The notes below the pieces were generated by a model that did no database searches, was not told the origin of the DNA, and saw only the letters and a list, made by a program, of their open reading frames with translations. A stretch of 64,000 nt of DNA from Spirometra erinaceieuropaei. Lineage: Eukaryota > Platyhelminthes > Cestoda > Diphyllobothriidea > Diphyllobothriidae. A program made the position numbers and the translations under genes. This document shows positions 1 to 55,475 of the stretch, in pieces. Where the stretch lies: assembly GCA_902702965.1 (NCBI GenBank), contig CACRXP010000001.1:2202084-2266083 (forward strand), written 5' to 3'. Every line of letters starts with the position of its first letter. Positions within the stretch are counted from its first letter, which is position 1.

Positions 1-1879
1 CCCCCACCTCTTGCTCCTGGCACCACACCCTGGTAAACCCTCACTGGGCGGGTCGAGTAGCGTGATTTTGAGTCGCTTGGCTGAATTTGCGAAAAACAGA
101 CCGTCTTTGTCCGAAATGTGGGCTAGGCCCCAACTTTGGCCTTGGTAGGTGAGGTAAATTCATACGCACACTCGATCCGTTTTTGTTCTTCCGAACTGAA
201 ACCAACCAAGCCGCTCATCAAATAAACCAGTGGCCTAAAGTAGATATCGACTTTTTAAACAAACTGCTATTGTGAACATTTTTTAGGAAGTTCGCATGTT
301 TTTCACCCTGTTTACTCTTTTTAGGCGATTTACTTCCGACTCAAAAAGTATGCAACAGGCTGCGCACGCATGACAACATTTTTGGAGTAGCCCAAGTCTA
401 ATTAGATGGACAGGTAAGTTTGTCCTAATTTATTTCTGAGAATATTCGTGACATATAAGTATGGCACCTTAAATTGCCAAAATAGAATACAATATCGAAT
501 ATAATACAGCATATACTGGCGTCGGAGATTAGGTAATACAACTTCAGTAAAGAAGATGATGCGGTTTCAACTCAAGAGGTAACAACCACATAAACGGCGA
601 GCTGCTTGAGTCATGCTTCACCGGCTCGCAGTCGATTTACATGGGCAATGACCTCCCGCCCCCAGTATTTTGTTTTGAGACTGCCTGGGTAGAGTAGTTG
701 GCTATGGGCGGGGCTGAGCGAACTGTTGAGTCATTATCGCACCAAGACCTAACAGTGGTAATGAAATCATGGCAATTGACGATTGGGTGTGGGCTAACAA
801 GCACTCAGCGCATCAAATATGACCTCCCGGCGGTGAAGGGAGCTGCTGCTTATTATAGCAGGCATGCGTCCCATAAGCGCTGCATTCTTTGTGCCGTATT
901 CCCCTTATCGGCGATGCCAGGCCAATAAACTTCTTCTAAGCTGATTCCTAGAACTCGCCTCTTTGCCTCTATCGACTTCTCTTATAGTAGATTTTCCCTG
1001 TATGGTTTACAGAGCTGACTGGGCGAGGCCCACTCGGACATGAGCAGGCTTGGCTGAAGGACCTGACTAACAATTATTCTCCCTAGTGATCAGCTTCGTA
1101 GTCCCATCTAAGTAATCTTTCTGCACAGTGTCTTCTTGGATTCCACCTGCCCTCCGTCCTGCGTGTTGACCCGCCCGTAAATCTCCCTTTACCACCACCC
1201 AGCAGGCTAGCCAAAGTTAGCTGGGGTCCTACACCCTACCGTTTCCCATATGAGAGCCACTCGAAAGTGTTTGCCAAATCAAAAGCAAGGGAGGAATTCA
1301 CCAGGAAAGGTGTATTACAGGTCTGACGTTCGGAATAGTTGTTCCGTCTGCCCATTTTCAGAGAATGGGAAGTCATGCGCACTGCTCTTCTTATATGGCG
1401 CACTTGGATGCGTGACCCGCCAATGGCGCCTGTGTGGCTGCATCCGACCCGCATGTCATCGTGACCTGAGTCGCCCCCGCCCTCGTCGGCCGCGGAGATA
1501 GTTGACGGCCCTCACTGTCTCGCGCCGTGACTGTCCTCCGTTAAGAGGTTTCATAAAGTCAGCTATGGGGTAGGCAAATTGATGTGGCGGTTGAAAGAGC
1601 AGTCCGTGGGCATCCAGGTTTCTTGCACCTGCTTTGCCTTATGATCACTGTTTGCTTAATGTTTCATGAAGTGAGTCGCATTCGGCACACCTAACCATGT
1701 ACTAATTCCGATTACTCGACCAGCAATTGTTTTATAGTCACATGGGGGTAGTGCGCTGTCCTGACTGGTCTGATCTGACCGGTGAACACCGCGGGCATGT
1801 CACTAACTACTCCGACCTTGGCCGACAATAAGCGAGCCAGTTATTGCACTGGTGAAAGTGTTACTTGATGATGCACTCA
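1..1879. other. No gene recognised
   Basis: All open frames here are under 90 codons and overlap on both strands without domain or splice support. The stretch 1010-1510 is noticeably richer in G+C than its surroundings and may be an old repeat, but I cannot assign it to a family. Confidence 0.5.
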
Positions 1880-1993
1880 CTGGGTGTCCGAGTCTTGCCT
1901 GTACGCCCCGGGACTGAGACATTACTGGCTCATGATTGCTAACAAGCCGGTAATGGTCATTCCAGTGTCCCTCTCTTTGTCGGCATGGCGTCA
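1880..1993 (+). repeat. Decayed SINE copy with hammerhead-like core
   Basis: This matches the 3' half of the tRNA-headed SINE family found through the window. The hammerhead-like part is 1924-1966: stem I ACTGG pairs perfectly with CCAGT across the core. The core itself reads CTCATGA (G5 changed to C), and the GAAA box reads GTAA, so this copy should be catalytically dead. It is followed by the family's pyrimidine-rich tail ending in ctttgtcgg. The tRNA-like head upstream is too eroded to place. Confidence 0.6.
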
Positions 1994-9838: not shown

Positions 9839-10330
9839 CACCGTGAGTCCCATGGAATGGGCGCAGCACCGCATACCTGCGCATAAATTAGTCTATTGTG
9901 AAGCGGACTTGCTCAGCACCTACCACACTGCACCCTTAGTGAGTCATTAGGCTCCGGTAGCTAAACAATGCCAAGACAGCCGGAGGTGGACTCGGGCACA
10001 GCGGCTAACAGGACTGGGCAGTCCGCCCACGTACACCACACACACAACCTTGTTCACGAACAATTTATCAGGTTGTTTACAGATGGGGGAGGGCTTGGAT
10101 CTCATGTTTGTGTGAGTGCCATAGAGTCCGCATAAAGAAGGGGTTATTGTGCCTGTCTCCCAGTTTTTGTGTCAATCACTCTATGCACATATAATGCTGA
10201 CTACAAAGATCGAGTTATCCAGTCGGCTGCCAACTTTATAAATCACGACTTTTAGGGCATCGTGATAATTTCAAAGTGCGTCGGATTTATTACAGGGGGA
10301 ATGCGCTGAAGTACTATAGGGGAGATTGTA
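9839..10330 (-). repeat. Family B interspersed repeat
   Basis: The block is clearly related to 60750-61150. Shared landmarks in the same order are a cataaattagt-like segment, gcggacttgc, aatgccaaga, gccggaggtgg, ccatagagtcc and a closing ttattacag. The order also matches, less closely, 60260-60600 (same strand sense) and the reverse complements of 33868-34420 and 49595-49995, so I treat them as one family. No reverse transcriptase or transposase frame is visible, so it is a non-autonomous or relic repeat. Strand sense is defined by the copies at 33.9 and 49.6 kb as plus. Confidence 0.6.
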
Positions 10331-18164: not shown

Positions 18165-18364
18165 ATCAAAAAGTTTCAGTGTATATCTTTCTGATTGTCT
18201 GCAAAAATTCTATCCGCTGAAAAAGGACTACTTATGCAATATAAAATTTGTACGTGATTTTCAAAGCCCCTACAAATCAAAACGCATTTTATAAAACTAT
18301 GTAAAAATAATCTTCCTGGTGCCAATTTTGAACAAGACTGTATCTTTTAGGCAAAATGTCATTT

Positions 18365-18514
18365 TTGACAAGACGAAGGAAACTACAATGTTAGTTTCTT
18401 GCTTGTTAATCGTCATCAGCCGACCATACCCAACCCAAGGTTTTCCTGCAACGTCTGAAGCTTGATTCCGCGACTTGCTGGATAGAAGTCCATCGTCCTT
18501 ACCCTCGAGTCACG
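18365..18514 (-). repeat. SINE copy with hammerhead core (minus)
   Basis: Read on the minus strand, this carries the family's tRNA-like head (ggacttctatcc around the anticodon region, then a decayed box B), followed by the hammerhead segment. The core CTGATGA is intact (complement of 18413-18419) and GAAA is present (complement of 18395-18398). Stem II and stem I are partly eroded. It lies head to head with the next copy. Confidence 0.65.
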
Positions 18515-18515
18515 A

Positions 18516-18790
18516 CAGGACAATGAGCCTATGTCTCAGGAGTCTGCGTGTTGAATTGCTAACCAAGAGGCCGCGTAATCAAACCTAAGATCTTGCGAGA
18601 CCTGAGATTGGGAGTGAATAGCTGATGACGGCTTATAAGTCCTTAACGGTCATTCCAGCTTCTTTTGTTTTTATCGGTTATGTTGTTCTGCCTATAATAT
18701 AAGTCGGCGTGGGGCTGTCGGTGGAACTCGAGACTGATTCCCAAAGCGCAGCGGGAAAACGCGGTCGGTCAGCGTCTCTCTACTACAACG
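18516..18790 (+). repeat. SINE copy with hammerhead core (plus)
   Basis: It begins with the family's junction motif gacaggacaatgagcc, followed by a decayed A box and a ctaaccaagaggccgcg segment. The hammerhead-like part lies at about 18616-18660: CTGATGA is intact (18622-18628) and stem II is CGGCT / AGTCC with a TATA loop. GAAA has become TTAA and stem I is disrupted, so this copy is probably inactive. The usual tail follows: ttctgcctataat, then a G/C-rich hairpin and ctcgaga. Confidence 0.7.
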
Positions 18791-34420: not shown

Positions 34421-37335
34421 AACTTTGGAAGAGATATTGCTTTACGGTAGAAAGTCGTTTAGCGGCGGTGCAGTCTGTCATTTGTCCGTCGTGTGCTGCC
34501 AGTTTTATCTCCAGATCCCGCAGCAACTTGATTGTGTTAAATAGTTTTTACCCAAGGTCTTTCAGCGTTTCAGTCAGTATAGGAAGGGAAACGATACAAT
34601 GATTTAACTTAGTTCAGAAAGAGGAGATATTGGTGCTGCAGGCAGGGTCGGCTAGTTACCTCTCCGCACAATTTTTGTTCACAGCTATAGAGGCGGTACT
34701 CCAGTCTTGTAGAGCAAAACGACTGATATGATTCCTATGCTTCCGCGGGAAAATCGTACTAATAAAACGGAAAAGACTCGAAATCAGAATAGATGTTTTC
34801 AGCTTATCCATACCTGAATATGAAGTGATCAGTTAGTTAGTTTTAAGCCCTTCCATGTCCAAGGCCACTCTCTTCTAGCCAGTAAGGAAAATTACCCAAA
34901 ATGTTAAGTGAAATTGAAGCTGGGCAAATTAAAATCCAGGGTTGTAATTTAAACATAGTAACATACGTTTTGCGGAAGGAAGTGGTCTCTGCAAATTAGG
35001 GCATTTAACCGGAAGGAAGCAGGAGACTTCGATGAGCAAATCAGCCAGGCAGAAGTTGTGTGTGATGTTATGAGAAGAACAACAACGTGTTCAACATGTG
35101 TATGGCCATCCTCCCCTAAAATTCACCTGCACAAGGTTCTAGTTGCTCGGTTTTAAGATTTTGACTTCTTGCACTTTGACTACAACTTAATTCGAAACTG
35201 GCTGAATGGCTTTCGAAGATCGCTTAATATGAAGGGACAACCTCATGGATGAAGCATGCAGCATCTGGTAAAATGACTGCTTTTTACTCGTCATCAACTC
35301 ACATCTATAAAAAAACTAATCCAGTTACAAAAACACCGAATTTTAAGTAGATATTCCAAGATCGGGGAAAAGTATGCCTTACGGCTACGTTTAATTTTTT
35401 TCACTCACTGTACCCCGTTCCCACATAACTGTACTGGTCTGAAGATAAGTTATCGAAAGCAGCGTTCGCTCGCAAATTTGTTTTCTGAATAGAGCTATGG
35501 GGATTTTTAAGACTCTAATTTAAATAGGTTTAAATCAGTGTCGATTAAGCTCTGGCGCTCTGCGAAAAACGTTTCACTTTTCTGATTGGAGCAAAACTTA
35601 CAAACGGAATTATCAGAGATTTGGACTACGTTTTTCCTAGCTAAAGTTTGTAAAAGTTTGCTACGATGGGATACTGAGTCTTTAACAAAAAGTGATGCCT
35701 TTTTTTAGTTAACCCCATTTGTTCGCCTTTCTGCCGCCTCCCAATACAAAGGACCACTTTTGTCATTCCACATAGAGGTTGTTGCATCTTTGCATACGTA
35801 TGCTCACATGTCGCATAAAAGACTTAAGACTAATGAGCAGACTTCAATCTTCAAGTTGCCTAAGCAGAAAAAGGATACCGGCGATGCAGGAGACCCTAGA
35901 AAGACTACTGAAGAACAGGGCATTACGATTTTCGAAATGTGCTATCTCCAGTCACAATTAGGGTCAAGATATGTGAAAAATAAGATACGTTAGTCACAGA
36001 CCTCTTCCGTCTGCTGTTTGCATAATTTATAGAACTTATCAGTTGCCCCTCAATCAGATAATTACAGCTGCCCCCTGGTAGCCATGCCCACCTGAACACC
36101 AGCTATTGATAAATGGCGTTTTTATGCCCGATGTATTTCATGATTACAAAAAAAATAGGAAAAGCTCAGTAAAGATAACTGACAACTTACAGTGTTCGAT
36201 AATTTGTCGCATAATTTGATGTCAAACCCTCTGGGTGCAGAGTTCTAAACAAAACATTCAAGTTGAAGATCAACTAGGGGGCCTGATAACACACCTAAAG
36301 TCCCTCTGTTAAAAGTTATTAAACAAACTTCGTGTAACGTCCTTGAAAAATCGAGATCGCAATTCTATATGGTCTTCATACGACATAACTTCTTGCTGAT
36401 GAGTGGCACCAGCAAACCTTTTGGCAATGGCTGTAGCCGATTCAGAGACCTTGCCGATATAACGTTTGAAATGTCAATTTTTCCACTCTTTCTGCTTTAT
36501 TGAACAATGATTAGTTCAAAAACATGAAGAAACGCTCAGAACGGACGGTGAGAATGGGAGGTGTATTAAACTTTCTTATCATTTTACTGTCAAACTGGCT
36601 TACCAGGTAAGACTCATCCGCGGTGACGGAAATAGAAAAAACAAAAATGGCAGGATGTCATAGGAGTTGTTGCTGAGAAACAAACAAATGCTGGCGTAGC
36701 AAATGGCACTATTACAAATCAAAACCATTATGGCGGACTAAATAACCATTAGGCTGTTAACAAATTCCTCAATCGCTCTAACCTACCATAGTGATCTCTT
36801 ATGACTAAAAGCAACACTTTGTGCCGATTTATACCACATTTGCTGGACTATGTATCTTCCTAACATCATAAACGCAGCAGTGGCCTTCGGAAAAATCATG
36901 TTCTTGCGACAACTTTGGTATTGATTTATACGGATAGATGAACCAAAACCTGATTTTTTCAGGATGTTTCTTTCCCTTACTGTCCAGAAGAAATTATAAC
37001 AGGCGTTTCTACGCTGCATCTTGACCACGTTGGTCGAAAATACCTTTAAGTCGTTGAGAAGAAATAGTACGACAGGCAGCAGCTTTTTTGATTCCAGCAG
37101 ATCATAGAGTTATTCGGAGTATGAATGCAAATCGCCTTTGTATGCCATGAACGAAATTTGTTCCGTCACCTTTGAACAAGTGGTCGCAAAAGTCCTGAAG
37201 TTATTGCCACGAGTTAGTACGAATATACAATATGATGACACTTCAGCGAAAGGACGTTTGTCAAAACTGAGATAAGAATACTTCCTGATTTAGGTTAACG
37301 TCCCCCTGAGTACTGCTCTATGGTGTAATGACGAA
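34421..37335. other. Intronic; nothing recognised
   Basis: No exon or well-preserved repeat was found between the family B copy and the next SINE. Confidence 0.4.
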
Positions 37336-37545
37336 AGAGGCGAATATGCAGAATAGCATTACCAACCAAGACAATGTTTTCTGGAATGACCATTTCCGGC
37401 TTGCTAGCCGTCATTAGCCAGACGCACCCAACCCCAAGTTTTGTAACCCCTGAGGTTCGAACTTGCAACCTGTTGGTTAGGGGTACAACGCCCTTACTTT
37501 TGGGATACGGGATTGTTGTCCTGTCGGTCTCGATCCGGTGTATGC
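37336..37545 (-). repeat. SINE copy, best-preserved hammerhead
   Basis: Read on the minus strand. The head region contains ctaaccaacaggttgcaag and a box B AGTTCGAACCT. These are followed by ggggttgggtgcg, the hammerhead segment (separate entry) and the usual tail (cattgtcttggttggtaatgc, ttctgcatat). The A box is eroded. The copy lies inside the inferred VWC-gene intron, on the opposite strand to the gene. Confidence 0.8.
37380..37422 (-). ncRNA. Hammerhead-ribozyme-like motif in SINE
   Basis: In minus-strand order the segment reads: stem I TCTGG; core CTAATGA; stem II CGGCT, loop AGCA, AGCCG (five of five pairs); GAAA; palindromic stem III with no loop (ATGG / TCAT, counting the last A of GAAA as 15.1); cleavage triplet ATT; stem I closing strand CCAGA (five of five pairs). 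This is the order C3-A9, stem II, G12-A14, stem III, U16.1-H17, stem I of a hammerhead ribozyme. The only core deviation is G5 changed to A. Other copies keep CTGATGA or CTGACGA, so the family consensus is a fully canonical core. A loopless stem III normally requires two hammerheads to pair in one multimeric RNA. Confidence 0.8.
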
Positions 37546-37555
37546 GATGGTAGAT

Positions 37556-37735
37556 GGGCGCCCACCGATCGCATTACGGAACTCACTCGTCCCATTGCAC
37601 CTTGAGGCTCTCTATCGAGCGTCGTCTATATCATGCGCCGCTGCGCGGCTGCTGACGTGACTCGAGAGAGCCAAAGGGGCACAACGGGACGAATGAGCTC
37701 CACATCGCAGTAGGTACGCACCCCCCTCCGCCACG
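37556..37735. repeat. Palindromic SINE tail junction
   Basis: A minus-sense SINE tail (cgcccaccgatcgcattacg, ggaactcactcgtccc, gaggctctct) runs into a plus-sense tail (atatcatgcgccgctgcgc, gactcgagagagcc, cgggacgaatgagctcc). The two arms pair as an imperfect palindrome around about 37630. This is either two fused copies in opposite orientation or a foldback product of the family. Confidence 0.6.
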
Positions 37736-42290: not shown

Positions 42291-42639
42291 CACAGAGTCC
42301 CCTAACTTTTAAATAGGTATGTACTTCTGGATTTTTGCTTACTATTCGCCGGCCTAAGCTTCGAACTCGTAGTTCCAAGATAAAGCTGAAACGCCCATTT
42401 CTGATACATTTCTCATCGCTCCGTCACCACGACTTCAAAAAATCAACCAAAAAACGTTAAAAGACGGGTTCACATGCTACTTCCGGCGAGGAGGACACTA
42501 TTGTTTGACAAAATTTTATTCCTCTGACGTATGGGTAAATACTTGAAAGAGGTAACGAACGTGCTGAATACAGTTTTTTAGTGTGCTTTTTTCCAAAAGG
42601 TCGCATACGTCCGCAGCATGCGGCTAGCGACAAGGACCA

Positions 42640-42835
42640 AGGAAGCTGGAATAGTCGTCTCTGGCCCCTTAACTTTCGCTAGCCAGTCACACTCAACCTC
42701 ATTATTGCATAAATGGGGATTTGAACCTGGATTCTTTTGGTCATTGAATATTTCCAGGTCCAACGTTCTACCACTGAATCACGAGCCCGTCGCCCTGTTC
42801 TTCATGACCAGCAGTATCCACCATGGTAGGAGTGT
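42640..42835 (-). repeat. SINE copy with clear tRNA-like promoter (minus)
   Basis: In minus sense, box A is TGATTCAGTGG (complement of 42771-42781) and box B is GGTTCAAATCC (within the complement of 42717-42730), with the family's ggacctgg-type spacer between. The hammerhead-like part (about 42641-42686) keeps the stem I strands GACTGG and CCAGC, but the core is scrambled (CTAGCGA). It is the best preserved box B in the window. Confidence 0.75.
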
Positions 42836-42974
42836 GTTCGCGGAGTAGGCGTTGGGACGTGCTCATACCGCTGCATACTGTGGCCCTATCTAGAGCCGAC
42901 GCAGGAATGCACCACGCCCACCATGCATGACAAGCAGAAATGATGCATGATGAGAATGAAACGGTTGACTTGAG

Positions 42975-43195
42975 CGGCATGACCTGTAACCTGATCGGTG
43001 AACGCACTTCCACTATAGTGAATTATACCGATTACGATGAACAGGACAACGGGCTCGTGGCTCAGTGGTAGTGCGTGGGACTTGGAAAGACCCGATGACT
43101 AAAAGAATCTGGGCTAGAATCCCTGATCATGGGTTTTGATATGACTGGCTGGCGTTAGTTAACAGGTCTTAAGTGACTTTCTCAGTCTGCCTTCT
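42975..43195 (+). repeat. SINE junction and copy (plus)
   Basis: A SINE tail end (gatcggtgaacgcac ... gaacaggacaa) runs directly into a new head with a perfect box A, TGGCTCAGTGG (43058-43068). This is the same tail-to-head junction found at 50.7 kb, so these were once head-to-tail multimers. The downstream hammerhead-like part (about 43150-43191) keeps ACTGG and CTCAGT but has lost the core. Confidence 0.7.
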
Positions 43196-43264
43196 TGTTA
43201 TCGGCATTCCCTTGCTACATTATCTCTGGTCGTTCTTTGACTATCCACGGGGGTTCTAGGTTGG

Positions 43265-45539: not shown

Positions 45540-48500
45540 TTGAGTCCGCTCACTGTGGCAGTCTGGAATTTTTGTTTATTTTTAGAAAACCCGAGGATCA
45601 GCCGACCCGAACGAGAGATGGCGTTAGTCGTCCGAGAACTGGCGCACTACAAGGTAGACATCGTTGCACTCAGCGAGACACCCTTAGCCGAACAGAGTTA
45701 GCTGGACGAGGTAGATACCGGGCATACACTTTTCTGAAACGTCTGCCCAAAGGCATAGCGACGAGACGAAAGCGTTGCCTTGGCCATTCAAAATAACATC
45801 GTGGGGCGACTGCCTTGTCTGTTGCGGGCATCAACGACCGACTGATAAGCCTGTGCCCGCCTCTTCGGGGATCCTAGTTGCCCACCACCATCAGCACCTA
45901 TGGCCACCAATTAACGGCTAGAACGATGCGAAAACCAGGTTCCACTAAGACCTGCGCACCCTCCTGGCGTCTTTGCCGAAGGCGGATAAGCTGGTTGTCC
46001 TTGGTGACTTCAATACCTGCGTTGGGAAAGAGTACGTTGCCTAGAGGGAAGTGCTGAGTCCTCAAGGAATCGACGGTTGCCACAACAAAGGTCTCCTTCT
46101 CCTGCAAACCTACTCAGAATGCCGCCTCCTGCTGACCAACACCTTCCGCCCTCGGACGGGAGAGAAGTCGACCTGGATGCATTTTCGATCGCGGCAATGG
46201 CACCTGCTGGACAATATCCTCGTCTGGAGGCGAGACCAGCAGACGGTACTGGTGAGAAAGGCGAGCACGGATGCCGATGGGTGGACCGACCACGGCCTCG
46301 CCATCTCCAAGATTAGAATCCGCCCACAGCCACGCAGGTGGCCTCAAGGTGTGCAACTGCCAGCTAAGCTAAATAATGTTCGGTCGAATTTGCCTGTCCA
46401 CCGCTTACGTTTCGGCAACTGGCTGACCTAGCGCCCGGGGAAGCTGCAAGCTCCAGATGAAAACGTCTCTCTGGAGACTCCATGTTACCAGCTCCGGGAC
46501 ACCCTCAATTCGACCGCCAAAGCTGTCCTCAGCCGCGCACCCCGTCAGCACCAGGATTGCTTCGACGAAAACGCCGCTGAGATTAGCCACCTGCTTGCCG
46601 AAAAGAACAGGCTGCACAAAGCCTACATGAACCGCTCGCCCGATGCAAACAAAACGGTATTTTAAAGATGTTACCGCCTTGCGCAGCAGTGCTTGCGGGA
46701 AATGAGGGAGCCCTGGGTGGCTTACAAGGCGGAGGAGAGCCAGGGGTATGTCGAACGCAAAAAAGCGAAGAACTTCGCTGAGACCAGGAAGATCTACGAC
46801 CCGCAACCAAAGGAACCGCGCCGCTTCTCAGCTCTGATGACTCAGCGCTTCTGAAGGAAAAGTCGGAGAAACTGCAGAGTTGGACCGAACGATTCAGAAG
46901 CCTCCTAAACCGTCTCTCCGCAATCTCCGACAGCGTCATCGACCGACTAGCTCAAGTGGACACCATAATCGACCTTGATCTCGCACCCTCTCATTACGAA
47001 ACCCTCTACGCCTTTCATCAACTCTCCAGCAGGAAAGCCTTGAGCTAAGATGGCATTCCGATTGAAATTTACAAGCCAGGCGACCACCGACTGATGGATC
47101 ATTTCACAGCGCTCTTCTGGGAGATGTGGCGACAAGAACAGACCCCCAAAACTTTAAGGACACAACCATCGTCCATGTTTATTGGCGGAAAGGTAACTGG
47201 CAACTCCGGGATAACCAGAAGGGCATCTCGCTACTCAATATCGCTGGGGAATTCTTCGCTCGCCTTCTCCTCAATCGTTTCAACGGCCACCTCGAGTGAT
47301 GACTACAGCCAGAAAGTCTGTGTGGCTTTCAACGACACCGCGGGACCACCGACATTGTTTTGTCGCTCGCAAGCTACAACAGAAGTGCTAGGAGATGTGA
47401 ACCTACCTCTACATTACCTTCGTTGACCTGACAAAAGCCCTAGATACGGTGAATCACGAAGTACTGGGGAAAATCATGCAGAAGTTCGGCTATCCTAAAC
47501 GCTTCACGCATGGTATGGCACCTTCACGACAGTATGGTGGCGCGCGTCACGGACAAGTGCCCAAACTCCGAGGTATTTGAAGTGACCATTGGAGTGAAGC
47601 AGGGCTGCGTATGGAAACGGTATAGAGAAGGACCCCACTTAACTGTCAGTAGACTGTGGATCGTGCCATACGTGAGTTGCGGTAAAGAAAGTTTTGTGGG
47701 TGGGGCAGCACGCTACACAATAAGCTGACAAAACGAAAAAACACGGAAATTGTCTGAATTTATGCCGTACCTTTTATCCAACGCTATTGTACGACGATGA
47801 AGATGAGAACAGTAATTAAACAATAAACAAAAAGTAAATTTCAAAAAATAACGGATTTTGAGTTGAGGTGTGAAATCGTGAGGAGTAAGTGTTGTTGGCA
47901 GTGTAAGTTGTGCAATAGCCTGCAAATGTATGCCAAGATAAAATCCCATATGACACGATCCACAGTCTACTGACTGCTGATTGGGGTCCTTCTCTATACC
48001 TTGGCTCTGCGTACTCGCTCCCACCGTCTTCAGTATCATGTTCTCAGCCGTGCTGATGGACGCCTACCGTGATGAGCGTCCTGGGATACGCATCGCCTAT
48101 AGAAATTACGGGCATCCATGTCAAGCTGGTACAACTGCAACTACGATGGAGCGGCCATCTGGTAAGAACAAACATCGCTTGCCTATCATAACAACTCCTT
48201 CACGGAGATGTTGCCACGGGTGTTCGTCCACCGGTATGACCGAAAGGACACTACAAGGACACTTGGGAGAATTCTCGTAAGTGGTTACATATCACACCAG
48301 AAGCCAGTGAGGGCCTCACATAGATCAGACTGGTCTGAAGAAGAGAAATGAAGACTGGTTCAGTCATCTACGAAACAAACCGGGTCGCAGCCTGCAAAGC
48401 CAAAACCAGGTTACTCACAAGTTTCAGGCGCCACCGATTCGCAAAATTGCCACTCAACTCCACCCAACGTGCAATCGCTATCAACGCACATTTCGCGCGC

Positions 48501-49995: not shown

Positions 49996-50034
49996 TTCCG
50001 TATTGATACTGACGAGATCAGCCACGGAGAGAAG

Positions 50035-50170
50035 TGAGGCAGATTATCCATTTCTGGCCTGCTAACCCTTGTCAATCAGCCCTGCCCAACTCCAGGATTC
50101 TAACCCAGCCGCACCCTCTACCAGTGAGCCACAAGTCCGTCTTTTTGTCAGGTGCGGTCGGGAATATGAA
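50035..50170 (-). repeat. SINE copy (minus), cluster member
   Basis: In minus sense it shows box-A-like ggctcactggtaga, a head remnant, and then a hammerhead-like part with the core interrupted by one extra base (CTGATTGA) and GAAA intact. It abuts the tail of the next minus-sense copy. Confidence 0.65.
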
Positions 50171-50440
50171 CTACGTGAGAACTGCGTTCACCTCTCGGGT
50201 CACGGGACATGCTCGTCCGGTTGTGCCCTGGGGCTCAACCTAGAGCCTCTCCAGCAGCCGCACGTCGACTAGTAATATACTGGAATTGACATTACCAGTA
50301 GAAACAAGTGAGACTGGGATGGCCATTTCTGGGTTATTGGCCATTATTGGCCAGCCATATTGAACCCCAGGCTTTGCAGCCCCTGAAAATCTTGCGATCA
50401 GTAGGCGCTCCTCTACCATTGCTACTATATTCAACCGCAA
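50171..50440 (-). repeat. SINE copy (minus), cluster member
   Basis: A nearly full-length minus-sense monomer. The hammerhead-like part is 50312-50356: stem I GGCTGG with CCAGTC (all pairs or one G-U), GAAA intact, palindromic stem III ATGGCCAT and cleavage triplet ATC, but the core reads CCAATAA and stem II is weak. The tail carries cagcagccgcacg (on plus) and gggacatgctcgtccggttg. Confidence 0.75.
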
Positions 50441-50446
50441 CCAAAA

Positions 50447-50719
50447 GATAACGAGCTTGTGGCTCAGTGGCTAGGGCGCGGATTCAAGCTTCAGGGGTTG
50501 TAAAACATGGGGTTGGATATAGCTGGTAGGTGACAGCCGATAAACTAGAAATGGCCTTTCCAATCTCCGTTGTCTTCACCGATAACATAATTCTGCCTGT
50601 AATACAGACTGCTGGGCGGCTGCTGGTGCGGCTCGAGATGGAGTACGAAAGCGCAATGGAATGAGTGAGTTCCGCAACGCCATCGGTGAACGCATTTTAC
50701 TATCGTTTATGTACTTGAT
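50447..50719 (+). repeat. SINE copy (plus), cluster member
   Basis: It starts with a perfect box A, TGGCTCAGTGG (50460-50470). The hammerhead-like part at about 50521-50562 keeps stem I GCTGG / CCA, GAAA and ATGGCC, but the core reads TAGGTGA. The tail is typical: attctgcctgtaat, ctgctgggcggctgctgg, gagtgagttccg, ccatcggtgaacgc. It runs straight into the next copy. Confidence 0.75.
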
Positions 50720-50925
50720 TGCAACCGACAGGACAATGAGCCCCTGGTTCAATGACTAGGGTGTTGGACTTCTAACCAACAGGCTGCGGTTTCGAGCCGC
50801 AGGAGTCGAAAGTCCAAGGCTGGGCATGATTGACTAATGACGGCTTGAAGGCCGGAAACAATCATCCCAGTGCCCCTTGTCTTCGTCAATAATATCATTC
50901 TTCCCATATATAATACATGTCGATA
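50720..50925 (+). repeat. SINE copy (plus), tandem with previous
   Basis: It begins with gacaggacaatgagcc 284 bases after the same point in the previous copy, so the two are head-to-tail. A tRNA-like middle (ggacttctaaccaacagg) and box B GGTTTCGAGCC (50788-50798) are clear. The hammerhead-like part (about 50828-50871) has core CTAATGA, stem II CGGC / GCCG, GAAA and cleavage triplet ATC. Stem I is mostly lost. Confidence 0.75.
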
Positions 50926-51064
50926 TAGCGCACTCCTCACATAGGTACCAGCTGGAAGCCCAGGCCCGAGTTTTGCCGATACTCTGCCGCAGGTATTCGT
51001 CTCCCGGTGGGTCATCCAGCGTTCTTTGGGCGGTTTCTGGTATGCGAACTCCAGAAAATAATTA

Positions 51065-51482
51065 AGGTTATAATTTCAGAAATTATTCAGTGCGAGGCAT
51101 GGAGTTAAGTGTCCGGAACATGACATTTTTTAGGGTCAGACCCGGAGCTCCAATGAACATTTCGCTGGAAGAGAATCAGTTACAGTAGAATTACCACATA
51201 ATATCCATCCTACAAACAAACGGTACTACTAGTGGTATAATTTTATATGACAAATGTTCATATCGTACTCCCCACACAGGTATGGTATGGCCATCTGTAA
51301 CGGAAGTATACTACTAATAGTACTATTTATTCATGAGGTGGGCATTTCGTTGTTATTCCACAGTAGTTGGTCGCCTTCGACTCAAATGTTCATTTAAATT
51401 CCGGGTCTGACCCTAGACAATGTCATGTTCCGGACACATAACTCCATGCATTGCACTTAAAAATTTCTGAAATTAGTACCCT
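51065..51482. mobile_element. Foldback element with about 110-bp inverted ends
   Basis: The two ends are long inverted repeats. Left-arm landmarks are ataatttcagaaatt, aggcatggagtta, gtgtccggaacatgacat, tagggtcagacccgg and atgaacattt. The complement of the right arm has the same set in the same order, with a few differences. The centre (about 51215-51330) carries a second small symmetry around tactactagtggta / agtatactactaatag. No transposase frame is present. Target duplication and superfamily are not clear. Confidence 0.8.
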
Positions 51483-54514: not shown

Positions 54515-55475
54515 TATACAGTGCGTGACCTATCTCATGAAATGTTGGCTGAAATTCTGAAATGCGTTTTCGATTAGGAAGGATTACTTGGTCGTGGTTG
54601 TGATACTGATTATCTTAAGGCATATGCTTATAACGTTTTGGACTCAGCAAGATGTCGGCTTTTAAATGCACTTCTTCTCAATCTCATGAAAAAGCGTGCT
54701 CGGTAAAAAATGACTACCTAATTAGCATGCATTTTTCCCATTGATTTTCGATGGTCTTGGACATTTAAATATATTTTATAGAAACCACAAACAAAAATAT
54801 GCTCTCTATTAGGGGGCGCTCACCGATCGTTCATACAGAACTCACTCGTTCCGTTGTGCCTTATGGACTCTCTCTCGAGCCCAACCAGCAGCCGCACAGC
54901 GGCGCATGATATATAGGCAGAATAGTATTACCGACAAAGACAAGGGAGACTGGAAATGGCCATTTCTGGCTTATTAGTCGTCGTCAGCCAGCCATACCCA
55001 AGCCCGAAGTGTGGAACACCCGAGCCTCGAACTCGCGACCTGTTGGTTTAGAAGTCAACGCCTCTACTCACCGGGCCACGAGCCCGTTGCCTTGTCGGTT
55101 TTCGATCGGGAATATACAATGTTAGGGGGCGCTCACCGATCGTTCATACAGAACTCACTCGTTCCGTTGTGCCTTATGGACTCTCTCTCGAGCCCAACCA
55201 GCAGCCGCACAGCGGCGCATGATATATAGGCAGAATAGTATTACCGACAAAGACAAGGGAGACTGGTAATGGCCATTTCTGGCTTATTAGTCGTCGTCAG
55301 CCAGCCATACCCAAGCCCGAAGTGTGGAACACCCGAGCCTCGTCTTCCGAGCCAGTCTCCCTTGTCTTTGTCGGTAATACTATTCTGCCTAAATATGCTC
55401 TCTGTTAGTCAATCAATAGAGAATCACGGCCTCTTTATATTTTATACTTAAGGAAGGAGTATAATTAGGTTTTAA
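54515..55475 (+). repeat. R1 repeat, plus-sense arm of foldback
   Basis: The left arm runs from gtgcgtgacctatctcatg to gttttaaaaaagtttt and is interrupted by the SINE dimer at 54813-55389. Apart from that insert, it pairs as an inverted repeat with 55740-56105. Landmarks are ggaaggattacttggtcg, gatgtcggcttttaaatgc, cattgattttcgatgg, tcaatcaatag and aaggaaggagtataattagg. Confidence 0.8.
54813..55389 (-). repeat. SINE dimer with hammerhead cores, with target duplication
   Basis: A 577-base insertion flanked by AAATATGCTCTCTATTAG (54795-54812) and the same 18-mer with one mismatch (55390-55407). It contains a full 313-base monomer and most of a second head-to-tail one (54811-55029 equals 55124-55342 except one base seen), then a 47-base tail fragment in opposite orientation. 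Box A/B-like signals are present in minus sense (gggctcgtggcccggtg; gagttcgaggctcg). Each unit has a hammerhead-like segment (about 54950-54993 and 55263-55306): stem I GGCTGG / CCAGTC, core CTGACGA intact, GAAA intact, palindromic AATGGCCATT, but one extra base before CCAG and a weak stem II. Confidence 0.88.

Follow-up and report, generated by a model that had tools for sequence, protein, structure and literature searches.

Does the segment at positions 37380-37422 of this DNA from Spirometra erinaceieuropaei represent a hammerhead ribozyme core embedded in a tRNA-headed SINE, as a sequence-only reading had proposed, and what moves the repeat to which it belongs? We followed both questions through the window, i.e. 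the whole stretch of 64,000 nucleotides that was analysed, and through further loci of the genome (L numbers).

A repeat family with a hammerhead-type core

All eight copies named in that reading belong to one repeat family: each coordinate falls inside a match to a profile built from genome copies (1777-1985, 18347-18515, 18505-18696, 37344-37620, 50285-50467, 50630-50908, 54912-55194 and 55225-55350). Together with ten further matches the window contains 18 (profile search, E ≤ 1e-3), and systematic sampling of three contigs (20 samples of 10 kb each; 200 kb, about 17.6 kb of it N) yielded 19. Very roughly, the genome may hold 8 x 10^4 family fragments. The repeat family exists, and so does its hammerhead-type core. 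Mapped features are collected in Table 1. Two other repeats were seen alongside, one about 390 bp long whose ends are inverted over about 58 bp (window 47613-48003 and L058 2196-2585, 79% identical) and an abundant one at L055 2583-3102, with similar stretches in the window and in many sampled loci.

Table 1. Mapped features of the family in the window, and copies of a second hammerhead repeat
Feature	Position	Strand	Basis
Old copy, hammerhead part decayed	1777..1985	+	profile match
Old head-to-head pair, left arm	18348..18511	-	arm mapping
Old head-to-head pair, right arm	18513..18785	+	arm mapping
Old copy covering 37380-37422, core decayed to CTAATGA	37344..37620	-	profile match and sequence
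Mirror arm to old copy 37344-37620	37626..37703	+	arm mapping
Old head-to-head pair, left arm	42610..42975	-	arm mapping
Old head-to-head pair, right arm	42993..43213	+	arm mapping
Old head-to-head pair, left arm; contains copy named at 50312	50019..50402	-	profile match and arm mapping
Old head-to-head pair, right arm; contains copy named at 50834	50395..50915	+	profile match and arm mapping
Complete young insertion, head-to-head arms between two target site duplication (TSD) copies	54795..55403	.	no N
TSD, left copy, AAATATGCTCTCT	54795..54807	+	two window matches, expected 0.00
TSD, right copy, AAATATGCTCTCT	55391..55403	+	same search
Left arm of 1.7 tandem units, from unit 238 to 145, with B-type 3' end at 54809	54809..55342	-	98.9% identical to young unit
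Right arm, from unit 1 to 45, with A-type 3' end; last bases overlap start of right TSD	55352..55396	+	arm mapping
Hammerhead-type segment, CTGACGA to ATT; extra base before CCAG, one stem II change	54955..54987	-	sequence
Hammerhead-type segment, CTGACGA to ATT; extra base before CCAG, one stem II change	55268..55300	-	sequence
Second hammerhead repeat, degenerate window copy	50863-51160	-	sequence
Second hammerhead repeat, one of two best copies	L009 862-935	-	Rfam 42.3 bits, above cut-off
Second hammerhead repeat, one of two best copies	L010 1501-1572	-	Rfam 34.5 bits, above cut-off

On the motif strand the family reads GRCUGG (stem I), CUGAYGA, CGGCU-AAUA-AGCCR, GAAA, UGGCCAU, U and CCAGUC. 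Its consensus follows the type I order of CUGANGA, GAAA, A15.1-U16.1 and H17 (here U) and, in agreement with the sequence-only reading, at each invariant core position of the family alignment the commonest base is that of a hammerhead. In the young unit stem I comprises six pairs and stem III is a four-pair palindrome. A descriptor with at least five pairs in stem I, at least four in stem II (basal mismatch allowed) and at least three in stem III matches the young unit once; it has no hit in 20,000 dinucleotide shuffles of the unit or in 20 Mb of random sequence searched on one strand. This rules out a chance match and makes a hammerhead ancestor secure. The heptamer CTGANGA taken by itself is not enriched in the window (39 occurrences, 33 expected).

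The segment at 37380-37422 belongs to the family, but the intact core claimed for it does not hold, core G5 having been lost. In each of the two best window copies (54955-54987 and 55268-55300) a single surplus base sits at the cleavage site and one G of stem II has become A, and no intact hammerhead was found among the window copies examined. Out of 198 profile hits we compared 64 old rows, which span at least 60 columns and share less than 90% identity with the young consensus, with 77 young rows that have under 40 gaps. The full core is present in both consensus sequences. In both, the pair 10.1-11.1 at the base of stem II is C.A and not the standard G-C, which is also what the Rfam type I consensus has there; among the 48 old rows with a letter at 11.1, 33 have A and 9 have G. 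Over the 11 core columns the majority base of the old rows has a mean frequency of 0.85, compared to 0.77 over all columns, and changes between young and old affect 2 of 45 hammerhead columns and 25 of 237 others, a difference that is not significant (Fisher p 0.27). Stem covariation, set beforehand as a test, proved uninformative in the decayed copies: pairing in the old rows is not clearly above shuffles, the lowest count being 24 of 500 shuffles for one of 15 pairs.

Rfam models detect no hammerhead in the window, either at gathering score or at E ≤ 10, and none in five genome copies (L002, L004, L006, L007 and L008). The type III model (RF00008) gave no match among the 68 scored of 113,006 candidates, a weak result since control genomes were silent too. 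The loopless stem III, which had been put forward as a special trait, is also found in the consensus of the Rfam type I model (Hammerhead_1), and we dropped it as a novelty. Another hammerhead repeat, unrelated to this family, whose stem II ends in a long loop and has G-C at its base, was also observed; its copies sit in long inverted repeats.

The predicted fold of a 312-nt monomer circle does not favour the hammerhead. Its stem I pairs have probabilities of 0.03-0.08 and core C3-U4 pairs with other bases; of the five stem II pairs, four reach 0.85-0.94. The modelled circle, with 67% of its bases paired, is more stable than shuffles (-120.6 versus -99.6, sd 5.5, 200 shuffles). The pair 10.1-11.1 is the most conserved of the hammerhead besides A15.1-U16.1, and U.U permits more cleavage there than any other mismatch, according to the part of the study cited (PMC3088659). 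G10.1 binds a metal ion (PMC7151607); this position is C in the present family. In an axolotl retrozyme with U.U at the stem II base the monomer is reported to be cleaved to 22% in an hour, and dimeric constructs much more efficiently (PMC7229834). Action as a dimer has been described for the hammerheads of newts and viroids and proposed for those of Penelope elements, in the sections cited (PMC6155905, PMC7761336), and the helix III palindrome AUGGCCAU could likewise join two hammerheads. Judged by its letters the family is a hammerhead by descent which fails one defining pair, and self-cleavage of the present-day unit may be weak, if it occurs.

Young members form tandem and mirror arrays

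A genome search with window 54940-55360 gave at least 101 matches (40 scored of 3416 candidates). Near-full-query matches are 96-99% identical, whereas relatives of window 37300-37600 are mostly only 74-77% identical, so that old and young layers exist. The youngest members (96-100% identical) are arranged as tandem arrays of a 312-bp unit with a G+C content of 54%, which we number from the base after the cleavage site. The tail-to-head junctions of the sequence-only reading are well founded, as arrays that repeat every 312 bp exactly occur on many contigs, e.g. at 9971, 10283, 10595 and 10907 of contig C1279. The window array has two private variants, each in both of its units. Such variants give no proof of a single circular template, as most arrays hardly diverge from the reference unit.

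We mapped 24 stretches around young copies and four more on the unit, counting arms of at least 96% identity and at least 80 bp and leaving out seven 3' ends and 22 5' ends that abut N or an edge. Every one of the 40 resolved 3' ends in young arms maps to one of two sites, A (unit 25-49; 22 ends) or B (145-155; 18 ends). The 25 resolved 5' ends are scattered over unit 4-270, without a fixed head. Arms measure 0.4 to 6.2 units and often form head-to-head pairs in which both outer ends are RNA 3' ends. One A and one B end are combined in 10 of the 11 two-armed insertions with both outer ends visible (L034, L035, L036, L046, L050, L051, L060, L061, L062 and the window); the sole exception, L045 1810-2141, has A plus A, a right arm of 93% identity and no TSD that we could find. 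One-armed insertions occur as well (L027, L048, L049).

Clear target duplications of about 9-16 bp are seen in five insertions, namely the window insertion, L050 (CAGAAAATAGCGT), L027 (AACATTAACTGC), L035 (9-12 bp) and L060 (11-16 bp, by eye). Up to 16 bp of AT-rich letters are repeated at the flanks of L051, the duplication at L036 is fuzzy, and the flanks of L034, L046, L061 and L062 run into (TA)n, where a TSD is uninformative. The set of older loci comprises L002-L030 and the window minus its young insertion, 34 hits in all, among them the young copy L027. Of its 33 resolved ends, 27 fall in the A and B zones with slightly wider limits (20 A, 7 B), and seven head-to-head junctions compare to one tail-to-tail.

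At nine head-to-head junctions free of N the two arms start at differing unit positions, such as 92 and 236 in L046, 4 and 168 in L031, and 238 and 1 in the window. Within the unit the motif TATAT is confined to A (39, 41) and B (151), so annealing of cut (TA)n ends there may help to fix the starts; ends in the non-TA targets L035, L050 and L060 are still near A and B. Variants of young arrays cluster close to the two sites (unit 24-30, 148 and 150), e.g. 30 T>C in 11 loci and 150 G>A in eight, and perhaps derive from the primer or the first copied bases.

The tRNA-like stretch

The old consensus contains TGGCTCAGTGG, which resembles an A box, and, at a distance of 46 bases, GTTCGAGCC, which resembles a B box. 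In the young unit only the B box is matched, and no A box match was found in the young subfamily. A tRNA scan of five copies gave one hit at 22.2 bits, below the cut-off of 29, and ARAGORN at default settings reported no tRNA in the window or in the consensus sequences. This stretch is the part most changed from old to young (15 of 73 columns). The unit has no TTTT, and a pol III transcript would therefore not be stopped by such a run. Unit positions 46-72 (CGCCGCTGTGCGGC) form a small hairpin, which recurs in L009 95-54 (minus) with changed letters that still pair (GTCGCTGTGCGAC, by eye).

A hammerhead-derived segment and a tRNA-like stretch thus do share one repeat, as had been proposed, but the scattered 5' ends leave no place for a fixed tRNA head. 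A simple interspersed SINE is an incomplete description, given the 312-bp tandem arrays and the mirror arms: the label 'tRNA-headed SINE' overlooks an architecture of head-to-head tandem arrays with two fixed RNA-3' ends.

Penelope-type elements in the same genome

The genome contains at least 34 matches to GIY-YIG frames (150 scored of 4416 candidates). At L056 a Pfam GIY-YIG domain is preceded by a reverse-transcriptase-like frame with a YVDD motif recognised by eye; no Pfam domain was found in this frame. Relatives of L056 number 1024 and carry RVT_1 and GIY-YIG; the 120 listed all come from Sparganum proliferum or Spirometra erinaceieuropaei, many with RVT_1, which would place the host of the family among diphyllobothriidean tapeworms. 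Inverted terminal arms are present at two of four GIY-YIG loci (L055, L058), where the mirror arms end at about one site on both sides and not at two. Comparison of the unit ends with four Penelope-type ends gave a short common motif (p about 0.04-0.12 for B, 0.08-0.99 for A). The resemblance at B is at most suggestive, and a common 3' end of Penelope elements and unit comes down to this short motif.

In Sparganum proliferum and Spirometra erinaceieuropaei, Penelope elements amount to about 10% of the genome, and RTE-BovB and CR1 to a similar share each, in the part of the survey cited (PMC8166898). In rotifer Penelope elements, copies are described in tandem and as inverted repeats placed head to head, one arm may bear a tail, and the TSDs measure 8-10 bp; for the inverted repeats the section cited prefers self-priming as cause, not priming on both strands (PMC3846280). 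The purified Poseidon protein, as far as the cited sections go, cuts and extends both strands, favours AT-rich DNA and starts inside its own RNA, the tail lying between two start sites; the Poseidon hammerhead cuts only with the protein present and is dispensable for insertion in vitro (PMC11167929).

Discussion

By analogy, the mirror-array footprint is the architecture reported for endonuclease-bearing Penelope-like elements. We favour, as reasonably probable, that the family is a hammerhead-derived, non-autonomous non-LTR retrozyme with a 312-nt unit and a tRNA-like segment, moved by a Penelope-type enzyme which primes on both target strands; mobilisation by such an enzyme is probable. In each unit the tRNA-like stretch is followed by the hammerhead-derived motif, which would cut the RNA between AUU and CCAG. 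Tandem copies would be transcribed into multimeric RNA, and the multimers cleaved, probably by two hammerheads paired via AUGGCCAU, and ligated into circles. The enzyme, combining a reverse transcriptase and a GIY-YIG nuclease, would cut an AT-rich target on both strands about 9-16 bp apart, and reverse transcription would be primed from one strand at A and from the other at B. Copying would often pass through more than one unit before the two cDNAs join head to head. The arms of several units call for a multimeric or circular RNA template; the circle, the ribozyme activity and the Penelope identity of the enzyme are the parts of the model that we infer. More tentatively, and with considerable doubt, a Penelope-type reverse transcriptase might load two primers on one hammerhead-made circle, at two dedicated starts, and roll from each to give the mirror tandem arrays. 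If true, this would provide a footprint naming the enzyme that moves an animal retrozyme.

A tRNA-derived SINE moved by a LINE such as RTE or CR1 would suit the A and B boxes in the tRNA-like stretch of the old consensus, and C.A at 10.1-11.1 if the hammerhead is a passive fossil. The mirror arms would then reflect twin priming at the two TATAT sites, which occur only at A and B and could anneal cut (TA)n ends. We consider this rather unlikely, since non-TA targets also end near A and B, 10 of 11 insertions have one site of each kind, the 5' ends are scattered without a fixed tRNA head, and tandem arrays require a multimeric or circular template. Twin priming by LINEs usually occurs at scattered internal sites, which contrasts with the two fixed starts found here. 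The abundance of RTE-BovB and CR1, about equal to that of Penelope in both Spirometra-group genomes (PMC8166898), would be compatible with a LINE as mobiliser.

Self-priming on an antisense template has been invoked for the rotifer Penelope inverted repeats, in the section cited (PMC3846280), and snap-back of one strand, or later recombination, could make mirror arms without priming on both strands. Such an origin is improbable here: snap-back expects both arms to start from about the same unit position, so the differing starts at the nine N-free junctions argue against it, and whole two-armed insertions are enclosed by target duplications. The same enclosure counts against assembly artefacts from a collapsed tandem repeat, which a single N between the arms (L035, L036, L050, L051) or within one arm (L034), and long N runs beside many other arrays, might suggest. 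With no N in L046, L060, L061, L062 and the window insertion, and the layout shared by diverged old copies, we regard an artefact as very improbable.

Among known systems, the Sm-alpha and Sj-alpha repeats of schistosomes carry pol III boxes. Like the present family they are SINE-like flatworm repeats of similar size (335 bp for W36.2) and high copy number, whose type I hammerhead has a very short stem III; compared by description only, they differ from it in that no mirror arrays are mentioned in the sections cited (PMC8490949, PMC2770079). The metazoan non-LTR retrozymes of coral, mussel and axolotl resemble the family in their tandem arrangement, with units of some 170-400 bp that each contain a single type I hammerhead, in their well paired RNA and in TSDs of more than 4 bp, and platyhelminths are among the hosts of retrozyme-like repeats; the main text of the paper cited contains no word starting with 'inverted' (PMC7229834). 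With a unit of 312 bp (range 150-450), one type I motif per unit and TSDs longer than 4 bp the family behaves like a retrozyme but misses the low G+C, which is below 50% in animal retrozymes as described (PMC7229834, PMC7761336). The amphibian hammerhead repeats of newt and axolotl are similar in their units of 330-350 bp and weak helix III and cleave better as dimers; they differ in host and, for one axolotl type, in U.U instead of C.A, and no mirror arrays are mentioned in the part cited (PMC7229834). GIY-YIG Penelope-like elements have head-to-head inverted repeats, tandem units, an optional one-arm tail, TSDs and hammerheads in common with the family (PMC3846280, PMC11167929), and the cutting and extension of both target strands described for them in the cited section (PMC11167929) is what we propose here. 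The family differs from them as a 312-bp unit, which we take to be non-coding, with at most a short end motif in common. We found no report of a tapeworm or Spirometra hammerhead or retrozyme among the open-licence papers listed.

Animal retrozymes apparently have no promoter and no motif betraying the mobilising machinery, in the passages cited (PMC7761336), whereas the present family has a tRNA-like stretch and ends fixed at two sites. Penelope elements have been named strong candidate mobilisers on the grounds of co-existence, common hammerheads and tandem copies (PMC7229834, section cited). The family shows that hammerhead-derived repeats can elude Rfam. Young and abundant, with a mirror-array footprint of two starts, it makes the mobiliser question directly testable and, for the Penelope cycle, of which little is known, supplies many naturally formed products of priming on both strands.
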